The position numbers and the translations under genes are program-made. The notes below the pieces were generated by a model. The model was not told the DNA's origin. It worked only from the letters and a program-made list of their open reading frames with translations, and ran no database searches. A DNA stretch of 32,219 bases. Origin: Holosporaceae bacterium (GTDB lineage: Bacteria > Pseudomonadota > Alphaproteobacteria > UBA3830). Shown in pieces: positions 3,704 to 32,219 of this stretch (positions are counted from its first letter, which is position 1; every line of letters starts with the position of its first letter). The stretch covers positions 1-32,219 of the forward strand of contig JAISZX010000066.1 in NCBI GenBank assembly GCA_031284365.1, read 5' to 3'.

Positions 3704-4525
3704 TTACAGAGATTTTATTTCAGAAATCGCTAACCCTGTAATTTCTGAAATTTCACGCAACTCCATATTTCTTGCCAGTAATTTTTGAGCGATTTTTTTC
3801 TTTTCATTTGTTTCACCTTCTTCTCTAGCGATGGTGAGTTCGCTATTATGGTCACTGATGGTTCTCTGGCGAAGATCGGCTATGGCACGGACTTCATCAT
3901 CGGCACTGATGTATTTTAGCGTCTCCATTGCTTCCTTTATTTCTTCTATTTCCAAGAACATCTCGTCAATAAAAATCGGATTTTTCAAAAAAGAAAGCCA
4001 GGCGGTGAGGAGATCGCGCCGATCGGCTTTTTTCGGATCGAAGCGCGGTAACTCCACAAAAAATATCCTCGCCTTATCGGTCATAATCTGATATGGATCG
4101 GGATCGCTCGGCTGAAACGTCATGTAGACTTCACTTATGGCGTTTTGGCGATCTGTCACGTTCTCCCCAAGTATCCAGACTCCGATGACGTTCGGTCCGT
4201 TGTAGGATTTTCCCTTCTTTACGGCTCTGGGCATCATGTTGGCCAGATAATGGAAGGCCCGCTGAGGGATCTCGCCGGTGTTGCGTACCTGAATTTCAAT
4301 ATCTAGTTTTGTGCCATTGTCGGTGGTGGCCTTCACGTCTAGACGGCTGGCCTTGTCCCTTTCTAGAATCCTCTCGATTTCGGTATTTTCTAACTGTAGG
4401 TCATTGATATATGGATTGTTTTTGAACAGAGAATTTAAAAGCGAGATTAACAGCGGTTTGTTCTTCTCCACACCGAAGATATTTTTAAATATGTAATCTA
4501 ATTTCGGGTCTAGTAGGTCTATCAT
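3704..4525 (-). CDS. Rpn/PD-(D/E)XK nuclease family transposase-like protein
   Basis: 273 aa; MIDLLDPKLDYIFKNIFG start, LDIEIQVRNTGEIPQRAFHYLANM core, and C-terminal IAQKLLARNMELREISEITGLAISEIKSL tail typical of the family. Confidence 0.9.
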   Translation of the reverse strand: MIDLLDPKLDYIFKNIFGVEKNKPLLISLLNSLFKNNPYINDLQLENTEIERILERDKASRLDVKATTDNGTKLDIEIQVRNTGEIPQRAFHYLANMMPRAVKKGKSYNGPNVIGVWILGENVTDRQNAISEVYMTFQPSDPDPYQIMTDKARIFFVELPRFDPKKADRRDLLTAWLSFLKNPIFIDEMFLEIEEIKEAMETLKYISADDEVRAIADLRQRTISDHNSELTIAREEGETNEKKKIAQKLLARNMELREISEITGLAISEIKSL

Positions 4526-9468: not shown

Positions 9469-10434
9469 CTAGTCCGGCAAATGCAAACAATAATCTGCAA
9501 CCATACTTGGTGAAAGTGAGCGGCTAAGTGCGTATTCCACAACGGCATCATCCTTAGAAGCGCATAGAATTAAGCCAACACTGGAATTTTCGTTTGCCTT
9601 TTTCACATCTCTGTCTAATGCTTCCAAATAAAATTCCAACTGTCCAAGATGCTCAGGCTTGAATCTTCCTATTTTCAGCTCTATAGCAATTAAACACATC
9701 AGAGTACGATTGTAAAAAAGCAAGTCTATTAGAAAATCTGTATTTCCAACCTGAACTCTGTATTCTTCTCCTATAAATGCAACGTCTTTTCCGAATTCTA
9801 AAATGAAATTTTTGATATTTGCGACAATAGATTTACGAAGATTTTTTTCGCTATGCGTTTCCGGAATATCGAGAAATTCCAAGACGTAGCTGTCGCGCAA
9901 AGCAGAAATCTCCGGCGTTTTTGAAATTGCTCGCCGGTTTTTTTTGTTAGAAATCATTGTGCGTTCGAATATCATGGCATCAAGTTGTCGTTCCAGTTCA
10001 CGAAAAGAATATTTGTTTTGGACTGCAGCTCTAATATAAAATTCTTTTGTTTCGTCAGTTTTAGCAGAAGCCATAATCAGCAAGTTATTAGACCAGCTAA
10101 TTTCTCGCAACAGTGTCGCGAGTTTTGGGTTCTCGACGTAGGTTTCATAAAATTGCGCCATGCGCCAAAGATTTGATGGAGAAAACCCTTTTATTCCTAC
10201 ATACTTTGTTTGTATGGTTTGAGATAGTCTCTCAACGACAGCTTTGCCCCAGTTGTCGGTTTTCGTTTTCTCGCTTATATAGCGGCCAATAGACCAATAC
10301 ATATCGATTAATTCTCGATTTACTGCTTGAAATGCTCTGGAACGAGCGTTTTCTATGATAACAATAACGTCGTTGAATGGCACGTTTTCGTCTGATTCTT
10401 TTGTTATTATATCTTTCACAAATACCTCATCCAT
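9469..10434 (-). CDS. YhcG/DUF1016 family PDDEXK nuclease domain protein (apparent 3' frameshift)
   Basis: 321 aa; MYWSIGRYISEK, GFSPSNLWRMAQFY, VQVGNTDFLIDLLFYNRTLMCLIAIELKIGRF, LCASKDDAVVEYALSRS. Confidence 0.92.
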   Translation of the reverse strand: MDEVFVKDIITKESDENVPFNDVIVIIENARSRAFQAVNRELIDMYWSIGRYISEKTKTDNWGKAVVERLSQTIQTKYVGIKGFSPSNLWRMAQFYETYVENPKLATLLREISWSNNLLIMASAKTDETKEFYIRAAVQNKYSFRELERQLDAMIFERTMISNKKNRRAISKTPEISALRDSYVLEFLDIPETHSEKNLRKSIVANIKNFILEFGKDVAFIGEEYRVQVGNTDFLIDLLFYNRTLMCLIAIELKIGRFKPEHLGQLEFYLEALDRDVKKANENSSVGLILCASKDDAVVEYALSRSLSPSMVADYCLHLPD

Positions 10435-14063: not shown

Positions 14064-15263
14064 TTATTCCTCTAATTCTTCTTTCCCAGGCTTTGTCATC
14101 ATTGCCTCTGATGGTAGACCATTTCCTAAAAACTGCAGCCAATTTTCCTTGTTTATGATGGTTAAATCTGAAACCCCGTAGGTTTCTTCGAAAATCTTCG
14201 GCAATTTGGCTCTTTTATTAGGGCTGTACTTAAATTCGTACGTTTTTAATCTTCCGTCCTCTTCCTCGATAAAATCAATCTCCCCACCATCGTAATTTCT
14301 CCAAAAATACCTACGACATCTTCTTCCTTCCCGCTGAGCCTTTTTCATGAGCTCAACAACGCAAAAATTTTCCCATATGCCTCCGACATCGTTTCGAAGA
14401 TCCATGCTTTGGTAAATACCAAGCAGTGCGTTTCTTATTCCAACATCATAGAAAAAGATTTTTCTTGTTCGATTCCCAGCAATTTCATTTCTGAGGTTTC
14501 TAGAAAAAGCCGGCAGCGCGAATATCACATAACATTTCTCCAGAAGATCAACATACTTCTTTACGGTATTTGCATTAATCTCGAGTCTCTTTGATAATTC
14601 ATTGAAAGAAACTTCCGAACCTATCTGCAAAGCCAAACACTGAAGTAATTTCAGGATTTGATCAGAGCGCCTTACATTCTCAAACACAAGTATATCTTTG
14701 TATAAATAACCGTTAACTAGATTTTCCAATTCGTCTCTGGCTTCATCTTCCGTCATTCCATGAATACATGGATACATTCCCAATCTCAGAAAATTATCTA
14801 AACTAGCATCTGCTATAAACGCTCCCTGGACGTCCTTTAATTCGTTTACAGAGAAAGGGTACAAGATAAACGAGCGACTTCTTCCGACAAGCGGCTCTCC
14901 AGTTTTATTAGCTAAATCAAAGCTGGACGAACCGGTTGCTATAACTTGAATCTCAGGAAAAACATCGTGAATTATCTTCAATGTCCGACCTATGTTGATG
15001 ACATTCTGTGCTTCGTCGATGGCAATTATGTCGAAACCGTCAACATACTGCTTCAAAAGCTGTTCGTTGGTTGTTTCAAGAGCCTGTTTTACACTCAATA
15101 GGTCGCAGTTCAAGTATACACATCTTTTTCCTAATGACTCATTTTCAGCAATAATTTGCCGAAGAAGTGTAGTCTTACCGACTCTTCGGGTACCAAAAAT
15201 CAAAATAACTCTATCTTGAAAGAGAGAGCCATTAATTTTACTAAATATATCACGTTTAATCAT
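14064..15263 (-). CDS. AAA ATPase with DUF4143 C-terminal domain
   Basis: 399 aa; VILIFGTRRVGKTTLLRQII Walker A, IIAIDEAQNV Walker B, VIATGSSSFDLANKTGEPLVGRSRSF, C-terminal NYDGGEIDFIEEEDGRLKTYEFKYS. Confidence 0.92.
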   Translation of the reverse strand: MIKRDIFSKINGSLFQDRVILIFGTRRVGKTTLLRQIIAENESLGKRCVYLNCDLLSVKQALETTNEQLLKQYVDGFDIIAIDEAQNVINIGRTLKIIHDVFPEIQVIATGSSSFDLANKTGEPLVGRSRSFILYPFSVNELKDVQGAFIADASLDNFLRLGMYPCIHGMTEDEARDELENLVNGYLYKDILVFENVRRSDQILKLLQCLALQIGSEVSFNELSKRLEINANTVKKYVDLLEKCYVIFALPAFSRNLRNEIAGNRTRKIFFYDVGIRNALLGIYQSMDLRNDVGGIWENFCVVELMKKAQREGRRCRRYFWRNYDGGEIDFIEEEDGRLKTYEFKYSPNKRAKLPKIFEETYGVSDLTIINKENWLQFLGNGLPSEAMMTKPGKEELEE

Positions 15264-15575: not shown

Positions 15576-15956
15576 TTACTCCAAACTTACCTCTAGACCT
15601 TCTTTGTGAGCGACATCAATTAGCTGTTTATCAAACGTAGCGATCGGGCATTTGTATTTTTTAGCCAACAGTAGATACGATGCGTCGTAGGCCGTTAACC
15701 CCGTTTCCACAGCGTATAGAAACAGCTTCATCGGATCGGATCGATGTCTTTCAATACCGAGGGCATCAACAGCGGCGAAACAATTCTTGACGGCACCAGT
15801 AGATAAAGCCTGGCGTTTGGCCGTTTTCCACATAACATTCGCAAACTCGTAATCAAATAAATCTGTTGTGATAAATCTTTTGTCATCATCGAAAAAGTTC
15901 ATTGATAACTCTTGTCTCACAAACTTTACGACAAACGACGTGTCCAGTACTACCAT
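15576..15956 (-). CDS. PIN-domain VapC-like toxin
   Basis: 126 aa; MVVLDTSFVVKFV, FEYEFANVMWK-like core, GLTAYDASYLLLAKKYKCPIATFDKQL. Confidence 0.88.
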   Translation of the reverse strand: MVVLDTSFVVKFVRQELSMNFFDDDKRFITTDLFDYEFANVMWKTAKRQALSTGAVKNCFAAVDALGIERHRSDPMKLFLYAVETGLTAYDASYLLLAKKYKCPIATFDKQLIDVAHKEGLEVSLE

Positions 15957-16242: not shown

Positions 16243-17598
16243 TCATCGCACCTCCCGTCCCTTTTGCAGAGTTTCGAAGGTATTTTCGAGTTTTTTCTCG
16301 TAGATTTTGGTGCTTTCGATCATGATAAGCATTTGGTTCATCTGTTCGTAGGCCATCTTGCGCTTTCTGTTGATGGTCGCCTTGGCCTCCTGCAACTGAG
16401 AGAGAAATTTGTTGACTTCTTCGTCCGACACCTGGGCATTTTTGAGATTTGCCGTTTCCTCCAGCATTACGTCCAAAATCTCGGAAATATACTGATGTAT
16501 GAGATCAACGCAAATAATGTCTGTGAAGTCTCTTAAATCAAACTCCGATCTTTTGTAGGTGGTTAGCACGTTCACCATCTTGTATATGGGAAGACGCACT
16601 TTTCCGATGAACTCTATCTCGTTCTTGGTCAGCGGCTGATCGTTGATGGCTTTTTGGGTGATGTCCGAGAGCGTTTTTCTAACTCTATTGGCGAATCCTC
16701 CGGAAGCAATATTAAAATCCTTCGCTTGAACCCTGAGACATTTTCCAGTTTCATCACAGCCGTATCCGGACACATTCCCGCCTTCGAGCAAAGCTTTTAT
16801 CAGATCGTCGGTTACTTTACTTGGGTATCTGACTACTCTTCGATTTCCAGATTCCTGGAAGGAAACAATCGTGCCGGAGACGGTCATGCACAGATACCCC
16901 AGCTCCGGGTCCGAGGCCAGGTAACCATTGCGTTTAATAACTTCCCAGGCCACGTTAAATTCCTCTGCAAGAATGTCTTTGTATTCTGCTTCGCTGCTTT
17001 TTCCAGCAAGCACTCTGGAGCGATTACTTCCGGCTCCACATTCGTGTTTGGCCGCCACCCAGCCCTTAAACATGCCGCTCTTGCTGCCCATGGATGTGCA
17101 TATGTGCCGACTTGCGACATCAGACTTTGGCCATGCTCCTCCCACCAGAGTGGCCGCCATCTCGCAGGAGTTCATGCTGGCCTGATTGATTTTAGAAGCC
17201 ATATCCTGCAGCTCCGCCATCACCGATTGCACCGCAGGAGCAAATGTCTTCATGGCCAGCATAAAGCCGTAGCTGACAGCGCTGGAGCCTATGCTTTTCA
17301 TTGCGTCCACCAACTGCGCGCTGTTTACAAAGGAAAATCCTCCGGTAAACATATCTATGCCTCCGCAGCCGGCGTTGACATTAGGTAGCTGCAGCGTCGC
17401 CACTTGAGAATTCCTTGCCCTATTCCTGACGCTTAGCCCGCCTCCGTTGTAATATCCCGCAGATTGATCATGATGGACTCCAGGAGACGTGGAATTTGTC
17501 ACTGCTCCAAATTTTTTGAAAAACTCTTCCAGATCTGCGCCCACTCCGCAGTAGACATTCTGGAATAACAAAGAAAAAATCAGTAGTTCTTTTCTCAT
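16243..17598 (-). CDS. traH: Conjugal transfer pilus assembly protein TraH
   Basis: 451 aa; GCGGIDMFTGGFSFVNSAQLVDAMKSIGSSAVSYGFMLAMKTFAPAV is characteristic of TraH. Confidence 0.95.
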   Translation of the reverse strand: MRKELLIFSLLFQNVYCGVGADLEEFFKKFGAVTNSTSPGVHHDQSAGYYNGGGLSVRNRARNSQVATLQLPNVNAGCGGIDMFTGGFSFVNSAQLVDAMKSIGSSAVSYGFMLAMKTFAPAVQSVMAELQDMASKINQASMNSCEMAATLVGGAWPKSDVASRHICTSMGSKSGMFKGWVAAKHECGAGSNRSRVLAGKSSEAEYKDILAEEFNVAWEVIKRNGYLASDPELGYLCMTVSGTIVSFQESGNRRVVRYPSKVTDDLIKALLEGGNVSGYGCDETGKCLRVQAKDFNIASGGFANRVRKTLSDITQKAINDQPLTKNEIEFIGKVRLPIYKMVNVLTTYKRSEFDLRDFTDIICVDLIHQYISEILDVMLEETANLKNAQVSDEEVNKFLSQLQEAKATINRKRKMAYEQMNQMLIMIESTKIYEKKLENTFETLQKGREVR

Positions 17599-18431
17599 TG
17601 CAATTCTCCGTCACCCATGATTGAGACAATCCTTTCCTCCATCTCCTGAATGGATATCATTCCAATTGCCACTGGTATTACGTGCCCTGATTTGGGATTT
17701 ACGGCGAACAGCGATGGATATGTGTTCACTCCCCAGGTTTCCGCTAGACCGTTGTCTCGAACGCTCCTCTCGAACAACTCATGCGTTTCACCAAATTCAC
17801 TGATGGCCAGCACGTCCCAGTCGTATTTTTCGCTAAATCCTTTAACCACAGGAGCAAATGCATCGCAGTAGGGACAATTATTCTTGAAAAAGAAGAACAA
17901 TCCATATTTTTGGGACAATTCATGGATTTTTTCTTCCGCCAGTCTCTTTTGTTCCGCCAAATAGATATGTCGAGCATTCTGGGACATGGGAGATTCCTGC
18001 GTATAATCTATGTCCGGAGTCTTGTATACGTTTTGCATCCAGACTTTTGCGAATTCTCCGGATTTTTGTATTATCTCGTATTGCATTTTTTGATAATTGA
18101 ACACGTTTTGAGAAGTGGGATACATCACGGCCGCCGCTTTGGCCTCCTCCAATTGTGCTTGATATAGTTTTAGCTCCTCTGTGGCAGGATATTGAGCAGA
18201 AATAGAAGAATCTTTAGACTCCTGGTTGGTATTAAAATCATCGGGTTGAGCCTCAGGCTCATACCAGTGCCAGCCTCTGGCGTGATCATCATAGAAGGAT
18301 TTTCCGTCCTCGGCATTGGATAAACCAGTTAAAAATAGAAAAATTATCAAACAGTTAACCATTAATTTCACTTTTCTAAATGCCGCCCGAGCGGCATAAT
18401 TCCATTCATCGCCTGTACTGCAAGTACTCAT
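17595..18431 (-). CDS. traF: Conjugal transfer pilus assembly protein TraF, thioredoxin-fold with CPYC
   Basis: 278 aa; FFFFKNNCPYCDAFAPVVKGFSEKY, WGVNTYPSLFAVNP. Start at 18431 has GGAGG upstream and ATGA overlap with traN; an alternative start is 18362 (MVNCLIIFLFLTGLSNA). Confidence 0.93.
   Translation of the reverse strand: MSTCSTGDEWNYAARAAFRKVKLMVNCLIIFLFLTGLSNAEDGKSFYDDHARGWHWYEPEAQPDDFNTNQESKDSSISAQYPATEELKLYQAQLEEAKAAAVMYPTSQNVFNYQKMQYEIIQKSGEFAKVWMQNVYKTPDIDYTQESPMSQNARHIYLAEQKRLAEEKIHELSQKYGLFFFFKNNCPYCDAFAPVVKGFSEKYDWDVLAISEFGETHELFERSVRDNGLAETWGVNTYPSLFAVNPKSGHVIPVAIGMISIQEMEERIVSIMGDGELQ
18375..18414 (-). repeat. Hairpin repeat copy A (TGCCGC-CCGA-GCGGCA core)
   Basis: Shares about 40 bp with copies B and C; lies at the traF 5' end. 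Confidence 0.7.
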
Positions 18432-20341
18432 TTGCCGCCTCCAACTTTCAGAGAACCGGTCAGATGTCTCATGTTTTCTTTAAGGTAAGCCGCTTCAGAT
18501 GCTCCAGAGCGCCGCCTGGGCGGCGTAACGTCATTAACCGCCAGTGGCGCAGCCACCATCTGCTCCCTAATGCGATCTAGTTCTCCTTCCCTTGCAAAGT
18601 GTTCTCCGCCCTGAGGCTTAAACTTGCCCATAATATCGTTGGTAATTTCTGTTAAATCTAATCTCGAAAAGTCGATCCGGCTCAGCTGTTCTGGAGTAAA
18701 TCCTCCGCAGCTAGGGTGTTCTGAGTCTCCAAAGTTCATGCCCAATTGCGGCTTTCCCTGCTCCTGCAAAAGTTTTGCGAACTTCGTTCCAAAGCAACAG
18801 AATACTGATTTTTTTCTCAGGCAGAATTTCGTAAATCCCACATTTATCTCTTCTGCACAATGGGTTCCGACATATATGCATTTCCCTTCTTCACGGAGTT
18901 TTGCCAGAGTTTTAGCGTCCTCGTCGCATCTTGTGAGGCCAAGACTCACACCCAGCCCCTTTCCGTTGCCACAACAATCTTTGATGCCAACTCCTATTCT
19001 GATTTTATTGCAGGAGCGATCTTGTCCCTTGAATATATTGATATTCGCCGTACCGTCCATCTCTTTTCTCGCCTCTTCCAGAATCGAAAGGTATCCCAAA
19101 GCCTGAATCATATCTTTGTCGGATTCGTAACTGGAATCGATGCAGTCTCCTCCCAAACAAAACGGATTTTTCTTAGAAAATTTATGTTTAGCCACCACAA
19201 CTCTATCTCTACATTTAAACTTCCATCTCCAGCGCAAACATTTGCCATCTTTTTCTTCCAGACATTCCGGATCAGGCTGCCGAGAGTACCCTCTGGCTTT
19301 CAGATCTGTGCAGGTATCTTTGCAGGACGATCTACAGCCAAAGGTCATGGTTCTACCCCAGGAGCCATTCACCTTTTTTCCTTTCCAGAACTTCTCCGAA
19401 GGCGGATCGTCCTCAAATGATTCGTAGCGACACAATCCCTGGTCGCACAATTCTTCATAGTGTTTGTAGGCGTCGTCTGGAATCCAATAATGCTCTCCGG
19501 TGTCATTCACAACCCGATGATGGAGATAGGCGTTTCCTATTTCTCCCCAGGGGATGTATTCATCGCTGGCTCCTCCCAGAAGCTTGGTTATCAGCGTCGC
19601 AGCACTTACTACGTGATTTTGTAATGCCGGCACCAAATAACAACTTGGGTGTATCCAGGGATGACCGTTTTGCTGTATGGTTTTCCTCAAAATCACATTT
19701 ACTCCGTTTACTCGATAGGTTTCGTCCACATAAGCTCCTCCCCAGGAAACTGTGCTTATATGGGTAATGTCGTTAAATACTCCATCTTCCCGAAATATCT
19801 CTTCTGGTTCGTCAACTATTTCCACTTTGATGGTCAAATATCCGTGATTCCCACAATTCTGACCCGCCGTTATATATGGAGGAGTCTGAAGATACACGTA
19901 CCTCTTCTTGATCATTCTTGCTTTTACAAAATACTCTTCGTCCGGACATTCTTCGCAGGTTTCAATGGTGTAGTCATCGCTCCCTTCTTCCACAGATTCC
20001 GTTTCTTCAAAAGCCCGCTCCGGATGTTGGTGTATTTCTTCAGATCGAGTCATAAACGGTTCGGTATCGTCCAATATGTAAGGCTTACGAGTTTTGTGAA
20101 TGTTCCGCAAATCCCTGCCGTGTTCTGTTTGTTCCAAATGTTCGAATGATTTAGATAATTCGGTCCTGTTGATAAAAACTCCATCTCGATATTGAGGTAC
20201 ATGAGTCTTGTGGGCTCCGGATTTTATTTCACCCTCTATGTCGTTTTTGCTGGATTCGGCCACCCGTTTCCCATGCTCAAACGAATCCCTCACGGCTTCT
20301 GCTTTGAAGAACGATAAAAACATCAGTAATGTCATTATCAT
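18428..20341 (-). CDS. traN: Conjugal transfer mating-pair stabilisation protein TraN
   Basis: 637 aa, Cys-rich (CCGNGKGLGVSLGLTRCDEDAK, YVGTHCAEEINVGFTKFCLRKKSVFCCFGTKFAKLLQEQGKPQLG, PSCGGFTPEQLSRIDFSRLDLTE), signature TraN motifs. Confidence 0.95.
   Translation of the reverse strand: MIMTLLMFLSFFKAEAVRDSFEHGKRVAESSKNDIEGEIKSGAHKTHVPQYRDGVFINRTELSKSFEHLEQTEHGRDLRNIHKTRKPYILDDTEPFMTRSEEIHQHPERAFEETESVEEGSDDYTIETCEECPDEEYFVKARMIKKRYVYLQTPPYITAGQNCGNHGYLTIKVEIVDEPEEIFREDGVFNDITHISTVSWGGAYVDETYRVNGVNVILRKTIQQNGHPWIHPSCYLVPALQNHVVSAATLITKLLGGASDEYIPWGEIGNAYLHHRVVNDTGEHYWIPDDAYKHYEELCDQGLCRYESFEDDPPSEKFWKGKKVNGSWGRTMTFGCRSSCKDTCTDLKARGYSRQPDPECLEEKDGKCLRWRWKFKCRDRVVVAKHKFSKKNPFCLGGDCIDSSYESDKDMIQALGYLSILEEARKEMDGTANINIFKGQDRSCNKIRIGVGIKDCCGNGKGLGVSLGLTRCDEDAKTLAKLREEGKCIYVGTHCAEEINVGFTKFCLRKKSVFCCFGTKFAKLLQEQGKPQLGMNFGDSEHPSCGGFTPEQLSRIDFSRLDLTEITNDIMGKFKPQGGEHFAREGELDRIREQMVAAPLAVNDVTPPRRRSGASEAAYLKENMRHLTGSLKVGGGK
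18505..18543 (-). repeat. Hairpin repeat copy B (CGCCGC-CTGG-GCGGCG core) within traN 3' coding region
   Basis: Alignable with copies A and C; encodes AVNDVTPPRRRSGA of TraN. Confidence 0.65.
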
Positions 20342-20892
20342 TGCCCCTCCAGAAGCTTGGAATGTGCAAATTCCAATGTCACATTGCCGGACAATCTGTT
20401 GATTTCTACGCCGTTTTTTATCAACACAAATGTGGGAACTTTTTTGATGTTGTATTGCCTGAACAAATCTGGATGAATCTGAAGCTGTAGCCCTTTCGGA
20501 TTAATCTCCAGTATCTTGTTCTTAGTTTTCAAAAAAGAATCTTCGTGAATACCTCTAAGCACAAGTGTTGCGTTATACTTTTGGGATTGATCGCCTAGCT
20601 CCATCAATGACGCTTTTGGCATCGAAAATGACACAAACACGATGATGCCGTTTTCTAAAGTTGCTTCTTTGTTCGGAATATTCTGAATTCCAGAGCCGCA
20701 ATCTTTGCAGCCATCTTCAGTGGCAGGAAGCTCGCCAGTTATGAACTCTAACTCTTTCGCCATGTTATAAACTTTCTCAAGATTGAGTCTTTGCTGTTTC
20801 GCGAATTTTACGTCCTCAGAAGTTCGATCCTGAGCTGCGGAAAAATCAAATGCCACAATAATCAGAAGGACTCCTCCTATAAAAGGCAGCAT
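20338..20892 (-). CDS. trbC: Type-F conjugative transfer protein TrbC
   Basis: Thioredoxin-like IIVFVSFSMPKASLMELGDQSQKYNATLVLRG ... NIKKVPTFVLIKNG. Likely start is 20892 (MLPFIGGVLLIIVAFDFSAAQ signal peptide), not the track's 21078, which overlaps traU deeply. Confidence 0.92.
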   Translation of the reverse strand: MLPFIGGVLLIIVAFDFSAAQDRTSEDVKFAKQQRLNLEKVYNMAKELEFITGELPATEDGCKDCGSGIQNIPNKEATLENGIIVFVSFSMPKASLMELGDQSQKYNATLVLRGIHEDSFLKTKNKILEINPKGLQLQIHPDLFRQYNIKKVPTFVLIKNGVEINRLSGNVTLEFAHSKLLEGQ

Positions 20893-21851
20893 TGTCTTTT
20901 TCTCCAGATCAAATATCCAAAATCTTCTCCCGTGTATGGTTTTTCTTTTCCTCCTTCCCAATGAACACTGGTTCGCCCAAGTGGCTTGCACCCGCCCTTG
21001 CCTGTCGTTGAAGACGGATACAGCATCTGCTGCTTGTATTGGCTCTTCATCATCAGGGGCATTAAATATGGTCCACACATTCCGCTTTTGCCGATGGTTC
21101 CCTGAGCCAATAATTCCCTATGCATTTTCGCCAACATGCGAGACGTTAGAAGAAGAGATGCTTGCACTCCTCCAATATGATATGGAACATGTCCCGTATA
21201 CGGATAAATGCTCCCCTGACATCCGGCGCACCAAAACATCTCGTCCAGAGGAAAACCGGCGGTCGCAGCAACGGAATCCGCGGCACAAGCTGCTTGCGCT
21301 ATTGGATTGCCAAATATTACTGCTTCAGGATTTAGCACAAATGCCGTCTCATCATCGTTCCACAGAGGATCAAATTCTGTGATGTAAGCAACATCCATCT
21401 GCCCCTTTTCCATGCAAACGAAATTGGTGAGAAGTTCCAGCCAATATAGGACTGGGTAAATGTAGTAATGAACCTGATAAAAACTGCTTTTCGTATTGTT
21501 GGTAGTGGCGCCGGTGGAAACGTTTCCATGTCCTCGAATACTGTCCGCTCCTATCTGGAGACCACCCATGTTCACAAGACAAAATTTCACTCTTGTAACG
21601 TCGATTAGTCTTGCCGGTTCCCAAAACGATACCGGAATGCCGATGCGAGGAATCGGTTTTTCGCAGGTGCAGAGAATTTCTCTAGGGTTACTGGTATCTT
21701 CCCCACTTGGAGATACTTTTAGTCCGCAGATTGTTATGGGAAACAAACAACTCCAACATATGTCGGTGGCGGGATTAACAAACCTGCCGGTGCATTTGCC
21801 ATATCCCTCAAACATCAATAACAAAGAAAAAATGCAGATAAAAAACCTCAT
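20877..21851 (-). CDS. traU: Conjugal transfer pilus assembly protein TraU
   Basis: 324 aa; CTGRFVNPATDICWSCLFPITICGLKVS, LLTNFVCMEKGQMDVAYITEFDPLWNDDE, GCQGSIYPYTGHV are TraU signatures. Confidence 0.96.
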   Translation of the reverse strand: MRFFICIFSLLLMFEGYGKCTGRFVNPATDICWSCLFPITICGLKVSPSGEDTSNPREILCTCEKPIPRIGIPVSFWEPARLIDVTRVKFCLVNMGGLQIGADSIRGHGNVSTGATTNNTKSSFYQVHYYIYPVLYWLELLTNFVCMEKGQMDVAYITEFDPLWNDDETAFVLNPEAVIFGNPIAQAACAADSVAATAGFPLDEMFWCAGCQGSIYPYTGHVPYHIGGVQASLLLTSRMLAKMHRELLAQGTIGKSGMCGPYLMPLMMKSQYKQQMLYPSSTTGKGGCKPLGRTSVHWEGGKEKPYTGEDFGYLIWRKRQCCLL

Positions 21852-21864
21852 GCGATATTTTCCA

Positions 21865-22500
21865 TTATTCCGTTACCCCAACTGTTTCTTCGATAATCGT
21901 GAGTAGCTTCGCGCCTTGTTTCTGAAAAACAATCGCCGGAATATGTCGTATTCCTAATTTCGTTGTCAGTATGCCGTGCTGATCAAAATAAACGGCCCGA
22001 TCTAACTGATTTTGCAAATCAAAAGGCGAGCCATTCACCAAAACAATCTTGCCGGACTCATGTCCATGAATGGTTGCATCCTTCAGTTTCGAAATTGCCC
22101 ATTTGATGTGTTTTCCAGCGCCTCCATCTATGAATAACAGTGGTTTTGAGAGACCTATCTTGTTTAGAGGGTTAAACCGTTCTCCTTTTTTCACAAAAAC
22201 CTGCCCCTTGTGGTCGGATAGGTCTCTTGTCACCGTAATTGTTGGATCAAACTTATATTCCTTTGTCTTCTGGGTGTGCGTAATTCCGACAATCGGTTGT
22301 GGATGCAAAATCATTTCTTTAATCCTGCTTTCTACTTTTATTTTTTCGGACTCCCATACGCCCGTTTTCTCCAACTCTCTAAGCCTAGAAAAAATCTGCT
22401 CCAATAAGTCCCTCTCCGCTATCTCAAATGTCTCTCCAAATACTCCAAGGTCCTTGGCTTCAGTGGATACGACGGCAAAAAACAGTAGCAAAATCAGCAT
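21865..22500 (-). CDS. traW: Type-F conjugative transfer protein TraW
   Basis: 211 aa; LGVFGETFEIAERDLLEQI, FDPTITVTRDLSDHKGQVFVKKGERFNPL, LFIDGG. Confidence 0.93.
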   Translation of the reverse strand: MLILLLFFAVVSTEAKDLGVFGETFEIAERDLLEQIFSRLRELEKTGVWESEKIKVESRIKEMILHPQPIVGITHTQKTKEYKFDPTITVTRDLSDHKGQVFVKKGERFNPLNKIGLSKPLLFIDGGAGKHIKWAISKLKDATIHGHESGKIVLVNGSPFDLQNQLDRAVYFDQHGILTTKLGIRHIPAIVFQKQGAKLLTIIEETVGVTE

Positions 22501-22527
22501 TAGCTTTTCTCAATTATTACCTTCGTG

Positions 22528-23010
22528 CTACGGCGCAATTTCTTCATTTGGCGCTGTCACCAATCCAAACACTCGACCTCGGATATCAGATGCCGAAATC
22601 AATCCAAATTCCTTGTATCTGGAGTCCAAACTATCAGGATGTGTTCCGGCGACAAAAACGTACCCTTCTGGAATTTTTCCCTCTTCCATGGGGCTAAGAA
22701 GCTCTGCCTTTTGGACCTCGCCTACCCTCGCCTCTCCCACATAAACAACTCTACCAACACGCTGAATTTCGTCTCCGGGGACTCCAACCATATATTTAAC
22801 AAACGTCCGTCCTCTAAAATCGAAGGCACATAAACCTCCTTTCTTTGGCTTGAGGTTATATATTTGCAAACACACTCTGAAAGGCACAGATGTCGAATTC
22901 AAAAAGATGAGTCTCATCTGGCTAATAACAACCAAACAAACAAAGCAAATAAATAGTCCCCAAAGTAAAACCCTCGGATGATTTTCACTTAACCAATTAA
23001 AAAGCTTCAT
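22528..23010 (-). CDS. S26-family conjugative transfer signal peptidase (TraF/TrhF-like)
   Basis: 160 aa; N-terminal TM, NSTSVPFRVC (catalytic Ser region), FVKYMVGVPGDEIQ (catalytic Lys region), PEGYVFVAGTHPDSLDSRYKEFGLI. Confidence 0.92.
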   Translation of the reverse strand: MKLFNWLSENHPRVLLWGLFICFVCLVVISQMRLIFLNSTSVPFRVCLQIYNLKPKKGGLCAFDFRGRTFVKYMVGVPGDEIQRVGRVVYVGEARVGEVQKAELLSPMEEGKIPEGYVFVAGTHPDSLDSRYKEFGLISASDIRGRVFGLVTAPNEEIAP

Positions 23011-25510
23011 GATTTCTCTCCTGTAAAATATGCTCTACAGCCTCCATAATCTCGTATCCCTGTTTCCTAAGCTCCTGCACCGCCGCGTAATCTTCCGCTT
23101 TCGTTGAAAATAATAATCCGCTAAATGGGTCCAACAGCAGCTTCCCCACTGCGTAACCGTCGGCTCCGTTGATCAGCACCTCAGCATATTTTCCCTGTTC
23201 CGTTTTAACCGAAGTAATGACCCTTTCCTTATGCTCATCCAGGAGAATGCGTTTGCTGTTTTTCAACTGCGCTATGGATTCTTCTTTTTGGGACAGAAAG
23301 CAATTCCAGTCGGAATTATCCCAGGCTGCTTGGGCCCCGGCGCAGGAATAAAAGTCATTTACACTCTGTGTGCCAACAACCAGTGATCCCCGATATTTGC
23401 GCAGTCTCCTTGCCAAGGTCTCAATGAATACTTCGCTCTGCTTGGTTCTTAGCATGTCCCAAGCTTCATCAAACACAATATTGAACGGAGTTTTTCTATC
23501 TCCCAAAAACATCTTGTTCGTTATATTAATAACCATCATTTGCACAACCACAGATTGTAGATCTTTTCTCTCCTTAAGCTCCTCTAACTCAATTACAATC
23601 AGGTCGTTATCCAAATTAACGTTGGATTCTCCGTTAAAATATTTCCCATACGCTCCCGAAGCCGTGTATGGATACAACATTTGTCCCAAATCCCTAGCCT
23701 GATCGTCATTTAGAGATAGAAGGGAATCTGCTATGTCCGTAATAGTCGTTTTATTTCTGTTTTTCTTGAAGGTTTCGTTGGTGGCCTGCTCCAGTAAAGC
23801 AGCTCCCTTGTCATCCACTCCGTTTATAGGAGCCGCCATCGTCTGTATTACCGACTTCAGCATCGCCAACGTATCTTCAACGGCTTCTTGATTCTTTGGA
23901 TCCAGTGTCGAGAACGGATTAAGACAAATGGATCCAGCGTCACGCTGGTTTTTATTGAATTCTATAAACTGACCGCCCAGCATATAGCAGGTTTTTTCGA
24001 ACGATCTTCCCACATCCAGCACAAATACTCTTCCTCCAAGACCTATGGTAGAGGCCATAAGCTCCTGCATAAACACTGATTTTCCTGCGCCGGAACGACC
24101 GACTACCGTTACGTTGTAGTTCCCGGCGGTATTATCGAACGGACAGAATTTTATAACCTGTCCTTTTCTTCCTCCGAACAGCATGGCCGGAGTTTTTGTG
24201 CCTTTCCATTCGGCCTGTTGAGGAACCAGATTCGCCGATTCCACTGATATGGTCGTTCTGAGCTTCTTGAATTCTTCCAAGGATGCAATTGTGTCTCTAT
24301 GCCACGCCAGCGGCAATGTGGTTAGCAACGAATGCAGCTGCGTTCCAAGGTTGGATTCAACTCTAAATAGCATTGTGGAAAACATCGTCCTCAACGTTTG
24401 CTCTGCACTCGACATTTCCCCCTTAGGGCTAAACAAAATCACATTGAATTGGGTTTTAACCAGACGCTCCCCCTTGTTCAAACAATTTTGGGCATACTGT
24501 AATTCTGCATGTTCTCTCTCAATATTCGGTATGTACTTACCTATGGGAGAATACATCTGCTTCTCGGCCATGCTGGCTTTCATGGCTATTTTGGCCACGT
24601 CATTCGATTGCTTATGTATGTGAACGCCATAGTGCATGATAAATGGAAACGGGAATTGCCTCGTATCTCTGAACATGTCTCCTATAAGTTCAGACATCTG
24701 ATACAGAGTCCATTCGGCTGGATAATTCACCACTGAAAACGTCTTGATTTCAATTTTGCCGTTTCTGAGTTTGAGTAAATCATCCTCCACAATCACATCC
24801 GTATCATGGGCTATTATCTGATTTCTAATGGGATCAAGACGATTCCACTTTTTATCCGAAGTATCTGTACAGCTGAAATCTGCATTAAAAACACCATCCA
24901 AAAATTGGATCAACCTTTCAGCATTCATAACTTTGTTTGGAACGCCCACTATAGTCAGCGTAGCCACTATTTGTTTCTTGATTTCCGTCACCTTTTTGAT
25001 CGTCAGATCAACGTCTCCGTCCAAATTAATGCACACGCTCATGTAACATCTGAAATCACGCAATACATACGGCGACAAATGTGATTTAATTGCTAATTGA
25101 CTCAAATATTTCGCCCTTCTCATGGCCAATGTTTGCATTATTTCAGAAGAATTTTCACGAGCTTTGATATATTGATCCAGTATGTGGCCGATGTTTTTAT
25201 CGGCATATATCATCGTTTGAATACTGCTTTCTTCTGGCAATATTTGTGTGAAAATATTACTCAATTCCTTCTGCATATTGTCGCTGTTGCCCACCAGAGG
25301 TGACGTTTCCAAAACGAAACCGATATGCTTGTCGGAAATAAACAACTCCGATTCCGTGTCGTACCATTGATATGGCAAAAAATCTGATAAATGATGCGCT
25401 TCTTCCAGTTCGGTAAGAGACTTCTCCTTCGGATCAACAAGTCCGCTAAAAATATCGCTGATCTTCCTGCCTATATGCTCTAATTTAAAACTATTTATGT
25501 TTAGATTCAT
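22997..25510 (-). CDS. traC: T4SS ATPase TraC (VirB4 family)
   Basis: 837 aa; Walker A VVGRSGAGKSVFMQELMA, NIVFDEAWDMLRT, GTQSVNDFYS. Confidence 0.96.
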   Translation of the reverse strand: MNLNINSFKLEHIGRKISDIFSGLVDPKEKSLTELEEAHHLSDFLPYQWYDTESELFISDKHIGFVLETSPLVGNSDNMQKELSNIFTQILPEESSIQTMIYADKNIGHILDQYIKARENSSEIMQTLAMRRAKYLSQLAIKSHLSPYVLRDFRCYMSVCINLDGDVDLTIKKVTEIKKQIVATLTIVGVPNKVMNAERLIQFLDGVFNADFSCTDTSDKKWNRLDPIRNQIIAHDTDVIVEDDLLKLRNGKIEIKTFSVVNYPAEWTLYQMSELIGDMFRDTRQFPFPFIMHYGVHIHKQSNDVAKIAMKASMAEKQMYSPIGKYIPNIEREHAELQYAQNCLNKGERLVKTQFNVILFSPKGEMSSAEQTLRTMFSTMLFRVESNLGTQLHSLLTTLPLAWHRDTIASLEEFKKLRTTISVESANLVPQQAEWKGTKTPAMLFGGRKGQVIKFCPFDNTAGNYNVTVVGRSGAGKSVFMQELMASTIGLGGRVFVLDVGRSFEKTCYMLGGQFIEFNKNQRDAGSICLNPFSTLDPKNQEAVEDTLAMLKSVIQTMAAPINGVDDKGAALLEQATNETFKKNRNKTTITDIADSLLSLNDDQARDLGQMLYPYTASGAYGKYFNGESNVNLDNDLIVIELEELKERKDLQSVVVQMMVINITNKMFLGDRKTPFNIVFDEAWDMLRTKQSEVFIETLARRLRKYRGSLVVGTQSVNDFYSCAGAQAAWDNSDWNCFLSQKEESIAQLKNSKRILLDEHKERVITSVKTEQGKYAEVLINGADGYAVGKLLLDPFSGLLFSTKAEDYAAVQELRKQGYEIMEAVEHILQERNHEAF

Positions 25511-25556
25511 ACTATTCCCTCTAAATCACTCCCAATCGCGTCACAAGTCACGAAAC

Positions 25557-25937
25557 TTAATTCTTCGCCTGTGGTGCAATCACCCATTCGGCTGGTTTAA
25601 CAACGATGTACAAATGATGCGCCGCATGCAGATTTTGGGACGCATCTTCGTAGGTCATCATATACATTCGCTTTATATCCTCGACTCCACGAGAAATGTT
25701 GCCGTCTTTGAATACCTTTAGTTTTGTCGCCATATCTCCTGATAGAACCAAATCGTCGTCTATTTCTTTGATAATTCCTTTGTCCGTCATCCTGGATATC
25801 TTGTGTATCGAGGCCTTTGGATATGCTCTCACCACATCTCCTTCAAACTCCCCATTCCAAGTGGAACATGAAGGCAGCATGATGCTGCATACAATCAATA
25901 AAAAATTAGATGCAATAAATCTCTTCATCCTAAACAC
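25557..25937 (-). CDS. traV: Short TraV-like lipoprotein
   Basis: 126 aa; lipobox IMLPSCS; located between traB and traC where traV is found in F-type operons. Confidence 0.6.
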   Translation of the reverse strand: MFRMKRFIASNFLLIVCSIMLPSCSTWNGEFEGDVVRAYPKASIHKISRMTDKGIIKEIDDDLVLSGDMATKLKVFKDGNISRGVEDIKRMYMMTYEDASQNLHAAHHLYIVVKPAEWVIAPQAKN

Positions 25938-25941
25938 CTCC

Positions 25942-27285
25942 TCAATGCGTTATAGTATTGCCTATTCTCCAAGCGGCGCCCGAGCGCCGAACTCCAGAAA
26001 TCGCCAGTCCGGCTCGGACCTTCTTCATATGAACCGCTGACGCCTTTACTGAATCCGTAAATACAATGGTTACCTTCCTGCCTCCGTCTATCATGATCAC
26101 CGGCTGCATTTGCTCCGCCCTTTTAATGATAAAATCCGCATATTTTTCCACCGCGTTCCCTATTCCTTTAGACGCTCCCTGTTGCAACATTTTTGAACCC
26201 GCTTGGGGAGAGAATTGCGCCAATCCAGAGTTTGGTTCAAACGTTACATGCGAACGACTATTGGAGGACAGATAATCCGCCATACCAGACATAAATCCTG
26301 CCACAGCTGCGTTTCTTGCCACCTCTCCTGCTCGATCAAAAACCATGCCACGAATTTTAGAACAGCCATTTTCAGCGGCCACGTATCCTTTGACTGGAAT
26401 ATCAATGCCCACTCCGGTTCTATTATCTATCTTCACTATCCGTTCCAGACGAATTATCACGCTCTCGGAAGATAAATCTCCGTAGGCCGCCCCTATAACT
26501 ATCGCGTCCTTTAAAAATCCCTTGACGTTGTTGGGTAAGTTTCCCATATCATTAATTCTCAACAACACCGGCTCAGGGTTGGCAGACGCTCCTATGCCAG
26601 CGCTAGCTATCACAGTTCCCACGAGCACCGCTCTCGCATAGGTGCCGGCGAATATAAAGTTTTCGTCTAAATCGTATTCGCTATCTGTATTGCTGAACCT
26701 AATAACCTTAATTCCATTCTTGAGCACCTTTTGATTTGGCCTTTCCCCAGAAAAAGCACGAGAAATACCGGAAGTATTCTCATCGCCAAGTACGCCTCTC
26801 TGATCCACGAAATTCTCGATTTTATCCATTAATAGTGGTGTAGATTCATTGGAATTTAAAACTTGATCTGCGGAATTAGATTTTCCTTTATATGTTCGGT
26901 TTTCAGGCACATCTTCGGAAGAAATAGCGGTACTTTCCCGTTGATCATCAAATGCATTTAGATGAACGCCAAGACCTATCACCAGCTTTTGGATTGAATC
27001 CAGTTGTTTCTGCAGTCTCGCGTTATGATCTTCAAGCTTTTTGTTATGAATCCTGATGTCTTCGATCTCGTTTGTGCTCTTTTCCACCCATAATTCTTGA
27101 TCCGATAATCCGTCCACTCCTGTTTTAATCTCCTTTTTATAATACCGCGCCGCCTTCAAGTTGTCGGAGTTTTTGCTCTCCCTGAACGCCATCATGATTA
27201 AAAAAGTCATCATTAATCCGCCCGCTACAAATCCAAAATTTTTATACTGTTTCGCCTTCACAAATTTTTCGAACTTTTCCCTCAT
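25942..27285 (-). CDS. traB: Conjugal transfer protein TraB (VirB10-like)
   Basis: 447 aa; N-terminal TM, coiled coil, FIFAGTYARAVLVGTVIASAGIGASANPEPVLLRI, C-terminal VTIVFTDSVKA. Confidence 0.94.
   Translation of the reverse strand: MREKFEKFVKAKQYKNFGFVAGGLMMTFLIMMAFRESKNSDNLKAARYYKKEIKTGVDGLSDQELWVEKSTNEIEDIRIHNKKLEDHNARLQKQLDSIQKLVIGLGVHLNAFDDQRESTAISSEDVPENRTYKGKSNSADQVLNSNESTPLLMDKIENFVDQRGVLGDENTSGISRAFSGERPNQKVLKNGIKVIRFSNTDSEYDLDENFIFAGTYARAVLVGTVIASAGIGASANPEPVLLRINDMGNLPNNVKGFLKDAIVIGAAYGDLSSESVIIRLERIVKIDNRTGVGIDIPVKGYVAAENGCSKIRGMVFDRAGEVARNAAVAGFMSGMADYLSSNSRSHVTFEPNSGLAQFSPQAGSKMLQQGASKGIGNAVEKYADFIIKRAEQMQPVIMIDGGRKVTIVFTDSVKASAVHMKKVRAGLAISGVRRSGAAWRIGNTITH
25970..26006 (-). 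repeat. Hairpin repeat copy C (CGGCGC-CCGA-GCGCCG core) within traB 3' coding region
   Basis: Alignable with copies A and B; encodes LAISGVRRSGAAW at the TraB C-terminus. Confidence 0.7.
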
Positions 27286-28943: not shown

Positions 28944-29267
28944 CTAGGAAATCGCCTTCAATAACTGCTCCGCCATCTGAATTAATGCCCCCTCCCCTTC
29001 TCCCACAAAGGATTTGGCTGCATACAAAAATCCAGTTCCCGCTAATCCCGCAATGCCCATCTTAAAGTTGTTCGCAAATAGGCATACTCCACTGCCAAAT
29101 AATCCGCCACCAATGATCGCCGGCATCCAGTCCTTCATCGTTCCTATAAACGTTTTACTCGCCGCTTTAATCTGAGCGTCCGTAATTCCACAAAACGCCT
29201 GGTCTATATTTAAAAGCATCATCACCAGTACCATTAGCCCGAATATTAGAATTGCTCTTCTGTTCAT
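28944..29267 (-). CDS. Pilin-like protein (TraA/VirB2-like propilin)
   Basis: 107 aa; signal sequence then two hydrophobic segments; first gene of the traLEKB cluster; strong SD (GGGAGGAG) upstream. Confidence 0.75.
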   Translation of the reverse strand: MNRRAILIFGLMVLVMMLLNIDQAFCGITDAQIKAASKTFIGTMKDWMPAIIGGGLFGSGVCLFANNFKMGIAGLAGTGFLYAAKSFVGEGEGALIQMAEQLLKAIS

Positions 29268-30193: not shown

Positions 30194-30769
30194 TCATGCC
30201 TTTTGTAAATTCAACGATTGCAAATAGTCTTCAAAAGTATCAGGAACGCCGCCGGGAAATAGCTTCTTGGCCACAAGGTCTGCGCTCCTGCCGGTACAGC
30301 GAGCGATGGAGTATTTCACGGCGGCTCCGATGACTGATGGAGTGGAAGTGGATGGGATAGTAAGATTGAAACTCTCATTCATGCCGTCATAGCCTTCTAA
30401 TTTGTCATGTTTCCATGGAGAAATTACTATAATTCCATCATCCATTTTTACAGAGCAATGTTGCATATTCTTAAACATAGCATGTTTATTTTTATAGTTA
30501 TATTTTTGTAATACGTATTCTACAAAATCCTTATAACGTCCAGTAATTGCCGAGATATCAAACAAATTGTAATCCGGATCGTTTTTTCCCACGACTCTGC
30601 TTTTTTCAAGTACTGTTGTTAGTGCACTTCCTATGTTGTAGCAACCATCTTCCGATGATAAATATATATCAACTCCCTTTGGATCTTGAGCACATACACT
30701 ACCACTTTTTGATTCTGTATAGAGTTCAAAAAAATCTGTGTTACAATAAACGGAAGCGTGCTTTTCCAT
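30194..30769 (-). CDS. CdiI-like contact-dependent growth inhibition immunity protein (DUF1436-like)
   Basis: 191 aa; layout YSYKTK-like (YNYKNKHAMFKNMQHCSVKMDDGIIVISPWKHDKLEGY) then LTIPSTSTPSVIGAAVKYSIARC; directly downstream of the toxin. Confidence 0.75.
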   Translation of the reverse strand: MEKHASVYCNTDFFELYTESKSGSVCAQDPKGVDIYLSSEDGCYNIGSALTTVLEKSRVVGKNDPDYNLFDISAITGRYKDFVEYVLQKYNYKNKHAMFKNMQHCSVKMDDGIIVISPWKHDKLEGYDGMNESFNLTIPSTSTPSVIGAAVKYSIARCTGRSADLVAKKLFPGGVPDTFEDYLQSLNLQKA

Positions 30770-30770
30770 T

Positions 30771-32219
30771 TTATTTTACCTTTATAACTGTAACTTTTAC
30801 CCCATTCCTTTCTCCATAACTTACACAATGTTTTATTTGTTGCATATGTATAGCAGACGTGTTTCCAGGAATTGCCAAATGTAGTTCTTTGGCCGCTATC
30901 ATGTCCGAGGTAAGCGGAAATTTTTCAAGAGTATGTCCACTAAAATCAACCATCTTATTAATATAGCCATTAACAGTGTAACGGACCATTTCTGGGTTAG
31001 CAATTCTCGAAAGTGTGTTAGTGTCAAGTGTTTTGGCGCTGATCGCAAGACCATTTTCTCGATCAAAGAAATCGAAAGTTTTGAAGTTTTTAGGCAGTCT
31101 CCAACTGGCTGGCAATATGGATGCAGTGTAATTCTCAAAAGCGTACCCGCGTTCGAACCAATTTCCGAACCAACTCATGCCGATTTTGCTTCCGTCGACT
31201 ACGGTAGCTGTAGATTTCGTGGCGGCTCCGAGCATTGCGCCGCGAAATTTGGTTACTCCGGCCATGGCCGCGCCTGCTTTTCCAAGCGCTCCGGGAGCAA
31301 AAATTTGGGTGGAGATATTTCCGACGTCGGCCAAATTTTGAGCGACCACTTCCGGCATTCCTCCGGAAATCATCCCACGCTCGATTCTTTCAAACGCAGA
31401 ATCGATTCCATCCGAGAGCTTATGCATCCAGCCGGAAAGAACATTTCCCGTTGCGTCGTCCAGCGCTCCGAAAACGGTACCAATCCCCTGTCCGATTTTC
31501 GCCAATCCCCTGTTGATGAAGTAACTCGCCGCCATACTATCGATAATTTCCGGATCCGATCTCATGCTTTCCGGCATTTTGGACATCTGATAGTCCATAT
31601 ATTGCTCGTGAGTCATGGCGTCAGCCGCGCGACAATTGTCTGCCACAACTCCAAGCACAACTCCAACACCTTCCCTAACTCTCGTGACCGCCAGAGGTTC
31701 CGGCGCTTGACTCAGTGCAAACAGCAGCTGCTGATACATGCCGATTCTGTCGTTCAGGACGCTCAGCTGAGTTTCTTTGGAAGCGGCAGTGATGCTCTGC
31801 TCAAATTTACCGGAACCGGCTGAACTGCTTCTTGCAACCTCCTCCTTTTTCGCCTGAAGCGCACCTATGGCTCCGCTGATTTCTCGGGCCACGGACGCTC
31901 TTGTCTTCGCAGACACAGGCTTCCCGGAGGTTAACTTCGCGATTTCAGCTTCGCCAACCGTCGATTTAAGCTTTTGATTAAGCTGATCGTTAACGGCGAC
32001 TGTTTCTTCCGCAACACTCTTTACTTTTGTTTCTTCCTGCTGAGTTGTACGCTGAACGGCTTCGTCCGTCCGCTCAATTTCTTCTTTAGGAGCGTTGGCA
32101 GCCATTTGTTCGAGTCGGATTCTCGCCCTGACCTGCTGTAATTCGTCCACCTGGGCCATCATGGCGGTGAATTCTGCGATGGAGGGGTTTATGACGGAGC
32201 GTTTGTGGGACTCAGCCTC
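30771..32219 (-). CDS. Polymorphic/CDI toxin protein, C-terminal nuclease domain (partial; ORF open to window end)
   Basis: C-terminus GYAFENY...FKTFDFFDRENGLAISAKTLDT resembles CdiA-CT tRNase domains of PD-(D/E)XK type. Upstream of the called ATG the frame is stop-free to 32219 (EAESHKRSVINPSIAEFTA-MMAQVDELQQ). Confidence 0.75.
   Translation of the reverse strand, partial: EAESHKRSVINPSIAEFTAMMAQVDELQQVRARIRLEQMAANAPKEEIERTDEAVQRTTQQEETKVKSVAEETVAVNDQLNQKLKSTVGEAEIAKLTSGKPVSAKTRASVAREISGAIGALQAKKEEVARSSSAGSGKFEQSITAASKETQLSVLNDRIGMYQQLLFALSQAPEPLAVTRVREGVGVVLGVVADNCRAADAMTHEQYMDYQMSKMPESMRSDPEIIDSMAASYFINRGLAKIGQGIGTVFGALDDATGNVLSGWMHKLSDGIDSAFERIERGMISGGMPEVVAQNLADVGNISTQIFAPGALGKAGAAMAGVTKFRGAMLGAATKSTATVVDGSKIGMSWFGNWFERGYAFENYTASILPASWRLPKNFKTFDFFDRENGLAISAKTLDTNTLSRIANPEMVRYTVNGYINKMVDFSGHTLEKFPLTSDMIAAKELHLAIPGNTSAIHMQQIKHCVSYGERNGVKVTVIKVK

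Follow-up and report, generated by a model that had tools for sequence, protein, structure and literature searches.

The best-known examples of palindromic elements inserted in frame into proteins are those of Rickettsia and Wolbachia. To our knowledge, the mode of movement of such elements is still open. The Rickettsia palindromic elements (RPEs) measure 105–146 bp, have inverted ends, and occur in intergenic as well as in-frame intragenic copies; guanylate kinase, for example, is active despite its insert (PMC2229807). The genome of R. conorii holds 44 RPE integrations from ten families (PMC10969869). The repeats described here come from a Holosporaceae bacterium, a member of an order that, as one study concludes, arose independently of the Rickettsiales (PMC6447387). 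They lie in a stretch of 32,219 nucleotides (contig JAISZX010000066.1 of assembly GCA_031284365.1, here C113), which is called the window throughout and belongs to a 1.44-Mb metagenome-assembled genome (MAG) of 133 contigs. The window carries an F-type tra operon on its minus strand, whose genes are nearest to those of MAGs labelled Holosporaceae or Alphaproteobacteria, several of ruminant origin (TraC identity 76–87%).

Three repeats in this operon, A, B and C, are in all likelihood short forms of a palindromic element that is mobile but non-autonomous and belongs to a lineage of rumen Holosporaceae. Since relatives carry this element at other sites, sometimes in frame in conserved proteins, it constitutes a new family of a type first found in Rickettsia. 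It resembles RPE-1 to RPE-8 and the other RPEs (PMC2229807, PMC3767692, PMC10969869) in its palindromic form of about 100–150 nt with inverted ends, in its many copies, which lie between genes as well as in frame within conserved ones, and in its hosts, which are host-associated Alphaproteobacteria with small genomes. Unlike the RPEs, it belongs to another lineage, has no NCBIfam sequence match, forms 52-nt two-hairpin modules that occur alone and in tandem, and has compensated stems. The insert peptides give no NCBIfam match at E<=1, although this library includes the RPE1 model TIGR01045, which does match other elements in these genomes; membership in RPE1 or another named RPE family is therefore rejected. 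For the element as a whole, there is no match among RPE, Pfam, NCBIfam and Rfam models. The Wolbachia palindromic elements (named in PMC3767692) are also protein-coding palindromic repeats of an intracellular alphaproteobacterium, a likeness by description only.

In each module of 51–52 nt, a 13-nt hairpin (H1) is joined to a second hairpin (H2) by a conserved linker. H1 reads GTACT-TGC-AGTAC in A, GTGGC-TGC-GCCAC in B and GTCCG-AGC-CGGAC in C. The linker of the three copies is ..GGCGATT..TGGAGTTA, with the pattern [AT]GGCG[AG]T...TGG/A.GTTA, and H2 has a 6–7 bp stem with the loop TCGG or CCAG. The GT..AC ends of H1, and GGCG in the linker where other copies have TGCG, mark A–C as a subfamily. 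An earlier note, made from the letters of the window alone, had placed three copies of about 40 bp on the minus strand; their sequences are found there, each within a larger module whose H1 hairpin had been missed. The pairwise identities of A–C are 33–35, aligned in 52 columns. Among 200 dinucleotide-shuffled windows, the best match to A had a mean of 27.4 and a maximum of 32, against the 33 (B) and 32 (C, ungapped) of the real window, so that the primary identity of A–C by itself exceeds chance only moderately.

The related tra operons have no sequence at these sites, and A, B and C are therefore insertions in the lineage of the window. The TraB proteins of relatives end like ...MKKVRRNLYAKKQY and that of the window ends ...MKKVRAGLAISGVRRSGAAWRIGNTITH; in TraN, relatives have EQM-RERLKGSDGTEA where the window has EQMVAAPLAVNDVTPPRRRSGASEA. 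Between traN and traF there is almost no spacing in relatives, and in the window copy A follows the same ribosome-binding site, standing between this site with its ATG and the TraF signal peptide. Copy A is thus either an N-terminal extension of TraF or, if translation begins at 18362, a leader. The description of the repeats as embedded in tra coding sequence is refined accordingly: B is the only one of the three with conserved coding sequence on both flanks, and C replaces the C-terminal tail of TraB. Their reading in different frames takes a more exact form. Copy A uses the frame of the inserts in the NifS-like and TOPRIM proteins described below (GDEWNYAARAAF; WNYAARAAF), B is shifted by one frame (LAVNDVTPPRRRS), as is LDAFTGVTPLRRQS in the genome G011, and C changes the frame because it is one base shorter.

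Motif patterns did not reveal copies outside the window (a short one gave a hairpin on contig C39 among several one-mismatch matches, a longer one two window copies only), and covariance models were therefore needed. Model R1 was built from A–C only, R2 is its refined form, and R3 was built without any window copy. R1 found 17 places at E<=1 in G034, a genome of the same family, against 0–2 in each other relative; in the window's own genome, G000, its strong matches were A–C only. With R2, the copies number 31 in G034, four in G000 (one beyond A–C) and one each in G011, G062, G014 and G019; the remaining family members gave nothing or weak matches of E>0.002 only, and order members outside this family had no copy at E<=0.001. 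The element has thus been amplified in G034, where its copies are dispersed and mostly outside long open reading frames (ORFs). R3, which has seen none of the window copies, recovers C (E=1.5e-6) as well as A (4.3e-6), and in the related tra loci it gives no match below E 0.5. The earlier note had suggested a mobile palindromic element comparable to the RPEs and possibly new, and had proposed a covariance search from A–C and a comparison of TraB, TraN and TraF orthologues; the extra copies, and orthologues without the residues, support it.

Beyond the family, a match in an alphaproteobacterium of another family (G300:C24:4190-4231, L190; R2 E 5e-8) has an H1-like hairpin, lies inside a 136-aa open frame and may be a genuine copy; eight family members of G300 contain none. 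Class-wide matches in G110, G088 and G160 were put down to chance, the genomes being larger or GC-rich, and an R1 side match in traA (29172-29202) was rejected as ordinary conserved pilin sequence common to relatives. Collections of plasmids, phages and viruses gave no match with exact patterns and blastn, which are weak tests. One copy (L142; L012:8889-8930, minus strand) lies between traW and traU in another tra operon, with an antisense orientation relative to the genes, and traU apparently starts inside the end of the element.

Table 1. Copies of the element and their host or related genes in the window
Feature	Position	Strand	Remarks
Copy A, whole module	18376..18427; H1 18415-18427, linker, H2 18380-18397	-	traF 5' end; absent at the traN-traF junction in five relatives
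Copy B, whole module	18505..18556; H1 18544-18556, linker, H2 18510-18525	-	within traN C-terminal linker, net +10 residues; TraN of five relatives without it
Copy C, whole module	25969..26019; H1 26007-26019, linker, H2 25974-25989	-	in place of traB C-terminal tail; TraB of six relatives without it
Possible decayed copy, low confidence	25532..25572	-	traV end / traC start; R1 18.1 bits, E 0.012 within window; no match with R2; in sequence absent from relatives
traF, host gene of copy A	17595..18431	-	TIGR02739, E 3.9e-55; possible internal start 18362
traN, host gene of copy B	18428..20341	-	TIGR02750, E 2.5e-59
traB, host gene of copy C	25942..27285	-	NF010289, E 8.2e-35
NifS-like gene, element-free paralogue of interrupted C39 gene	8124..9368	-	tblastn 66% identity, 42-residue gap at element

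The in-frame insertion into conserved proteins, seen in TraN, is best shown outside the window. A NifS-like gene carries the fourth copy of the window's genome (C39:1331-1372, L138) in frame, and the paralogue in the window lacks the 42 residues exactly at the element. The G062 copy is in frame in a 941-aa TOPRIM/DUF927 protein, where the insert makes up residues 238–282. In many genomes of the family, homologues can be aligned as far as about residue 237 and again from 283 onwards, and three of them, read directly, have a short uninterrupted ADND...NPGLTKA stretch at the site. The inserts of these two unrelated proteins match each other in the same frame (VGS.F.S.AA.AAV...TLQAQ..Y..AG; 47% over 43 aa, E 3e-9), and coding sequence evidently tolerates the element. 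The C-terminal part of the interrupted NifS-like protein (L138:1086-2525) ends in NVTLDPPMANVTFDPP, absent from the window paralogue, which by its letters looks like a second, H1-type palindromic insertion.

Both stems are constrained in structure. In H2, five of the six pairs changed on both sides and 95.6% of cells are paired, a result that none of 500 shuffles equalled and that is unchanged when only non-window copies are used. Of 38 copies, 28 have in H1 a perfect stem of 5 bp or more, and 19 different stems occur among them; shuffles yield such a stem in 1.8% of cases. The selection of copies with a structured model favours a paired H2; H1 was in no model, and the MAFFT alignments were blind to structure. 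The compensated stem changes described in the earlier note are hence borne out for H2 by the shuffle test, and the stems of H1 also covary.

The full-length element has about 145 nt with inverted ends, as longer copies extend some 90 nt past H2 and finish in the complement of the start. The ends of the C39 element are CCAACGTGACGTTGGATCC...GGATCAAACGTCACGTTTG, and by eye there are analogues in L125 and L142, so that a palindrome of 100–150 nt is present at these three loci and not in the 52-nt copies of the window. The C39 element (146 nt) folds along its whole length with a z of -3.3; L125, at z only -0.6, does not stand out. The short modules, the form found in the window, are present singly and also as a tandem array (G034:C27). 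A 240-nt repeat that resembles a miniature inverted-repeat transposable element (MITE), with the ends CTTACCACCCTACGG...CGACGGGTGGTAAG, encloses the element in G011 and in several places of G034. Since this repeat also exists element-free (G034:C59), part of the amplification is hitchhiking in the MITE. The frame differs among copies of the compound repeat, and a conserved ORF across it was rejected. The MITE-like family itself, with the terminal inverted repeat (TIR) CTTACCACCCTACGG...CGACGGGTGGTAAG, is found in one genus of the family, e.g., at G034:C59:834-1047 (L181) and G019:C10:25428-25641 (L182). Its end pattern has 16–30 matches in each of three genomes, compared with 1–7 for a control pattern. 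MITEs and repeats of the Correia, ERIC and RUP type (PMC2229807) are likewise small, non-autonomous and provided with inverted ends. The Holosporaceae element additionally rides inside a true MITE-like repeat with the TIR CTTACCACCC, and the TIRs are observed on this outer repeat; neither a target-site duplication nor a cognate transposase or insertion sequence (IS) is established for the element itself.

Such hairpins could also be functional RNA elements of the tra operon, kept by selection for processing, stability or attenuation at gene junctions. A–C are all found on the transcribed strand of a single operon, close to the ends of genes, and the compensatory changes preserve the stems. However, related tra operons of the same gene order have no copies, other copies sit in unrelated genes and intergenic regions, no Rfam score exceeds the gathering threshold, and U-tract terminators are absent, which makes this explanation improbable. 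A transposition-based alternative, that the repeats are repetitive extragenic palindromic (REP) elements mobilised by REP-associated tyrosine (Y1) transposases (RAYTs), is slightly less probable still. REP/RAYT systems and CGTC-tagged repeats (PMC3733652) likewise comprise hairpin repeats, some of them in genes, a conserved GGAG precedes the hairpin here, and PF01797 genes are present in G000, G011, G007 and G002. The conserved upstream motif is nevertheless TGGAGT, a few nucleotides from the stem, and neither a GTAG/CGTC end tag nor a linked tyrosine transposase accompanies the element. The full-length copies have 145 nt with inverted ends, not the 20–40 nt of REPs. RAYT-type transposases do not track the copy number: G034, with about 31 copies at 85% completeness, has no PF01797 match, G007 and G002 are rich in PF01797 genes but have no confident copy, and the copies of G000 are on other contigs than its RAYT genes. 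A link to RAYTs was rejected.

The similarity as mere chance, or as ordinary conserved coding sequence in GC-rich stretches, has next to no probability left and is refuted by the genome searches. That the identity of A–C is only slightly above the best of the shuffled windows would agree with it; independent amplification in G034, covariation, two-way out-of-sample recognition and absence from orthologues contradict it. Several observations do weigh against a mobile palindromic element. No target-site duplication of its own was established and no cognate transposase was found, and 8 kb contain three of the genome's four copies, a clustering that is not predicted for a freely transposing element. 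The 3' half is not present beyond chance in the window copies, whose folding energy is unremarkable (z -0.6 to -1.6), and the predicted minimum-energy fold of C differs from the H1–H2 fold. Copy B is weak out of sample (0.14, rank 4 with R3), its tie to A and C resting on R1 and on its H1. About five codons differ at the TOPRIM and NifS junctions, so precise insertion is not demonstrated. The genomes are MAGs (contamination 6.7% for that of the window), and some single copies could thus be mis-binned.

Presence and absence, copy number and nesting nevertheless point to a mobile element. It would spread as DNA, probably by means of hairpins used by a transposase in trans or by hitchhiking in MITEs; in genes it would persist because the frame stays open and the sites that it enters can accommodate additional residues. 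A–C probably represent a local subfamily that multiplied within the tra operon, as they share the subfamily traits and make up the cluster within 8 kb. Most likely they are selfish DNA, which adds short peptides to TraF, TraN and TraB and has no required function. A more far-reaching proposal, which is held only tentatively and judged rather unlikely, is a two-hairpin module with freely changing but paired stems, in which the mobilising enzyme or RNA would recognise structure and not sequence. Such a module would be actively spreading in the Holosporaceae, giving conjugation proteins and core proteins new peptide segments, and multiplying locally within single operons.

The new family offers fresh material on palindromic elements: a low copy number, visible empty sites, and a paralogue pair with the insert in one member only. 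The nested copies help to fix the boundaries of the element, and the stems reveal which feature is kept. Literature searches on palindromic elements in Holosporaceae gave only work on Rickettsia, general work on Holosporales and Rickettsiales and one unrelated shrimp review; their coverage is incomplete and priority is unproven. RPE1-like elements are apparently present in the same organisms, provided that the contigs are not mis-binned. The TIGR01045 model scores above its cut-off on two copies at G062:C101 (L194, L196) and, with neighbours in frame, at G000:C84:372-488 on the minus strand (L195). These elements of Holosporaceae MAGs have 144 nt, and 16–17 of their 20 initial bases recur in inverted form at the opposite end; their presence suggests that RPE families extend beyond Rickettsia. 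RPE1-like fragments also occur at G000:C76 and possibly C8.

Further observations concern the neighbours of the tra genes. The NifS-like gene of the window (Table 1), which lies within the tra region, encodes a cysteine-desulfurase-like protein with an apparent signal peptide, which is unusual for a pyridoxal-phosphate (PLP) enzyme. Cargo-like genes among the tra genes encode a YhcG/DUF1016 nuclease (9469-10434), an AAA_14/DUF4143 ATPase (14064-15263), a PIN domain (15576-15956) and a member of the PD-(D/E)XK transposase family (3704-4525). At 30194-32162, adjoining the operon, a CdiI-type immunity gene (PF07262, E 1.9e-30) stands directly 3' of the gene for a 463-aa protein that has no NCBIfam match, and the two are likely a contact-dependent inhibition toxin/immunity pair.

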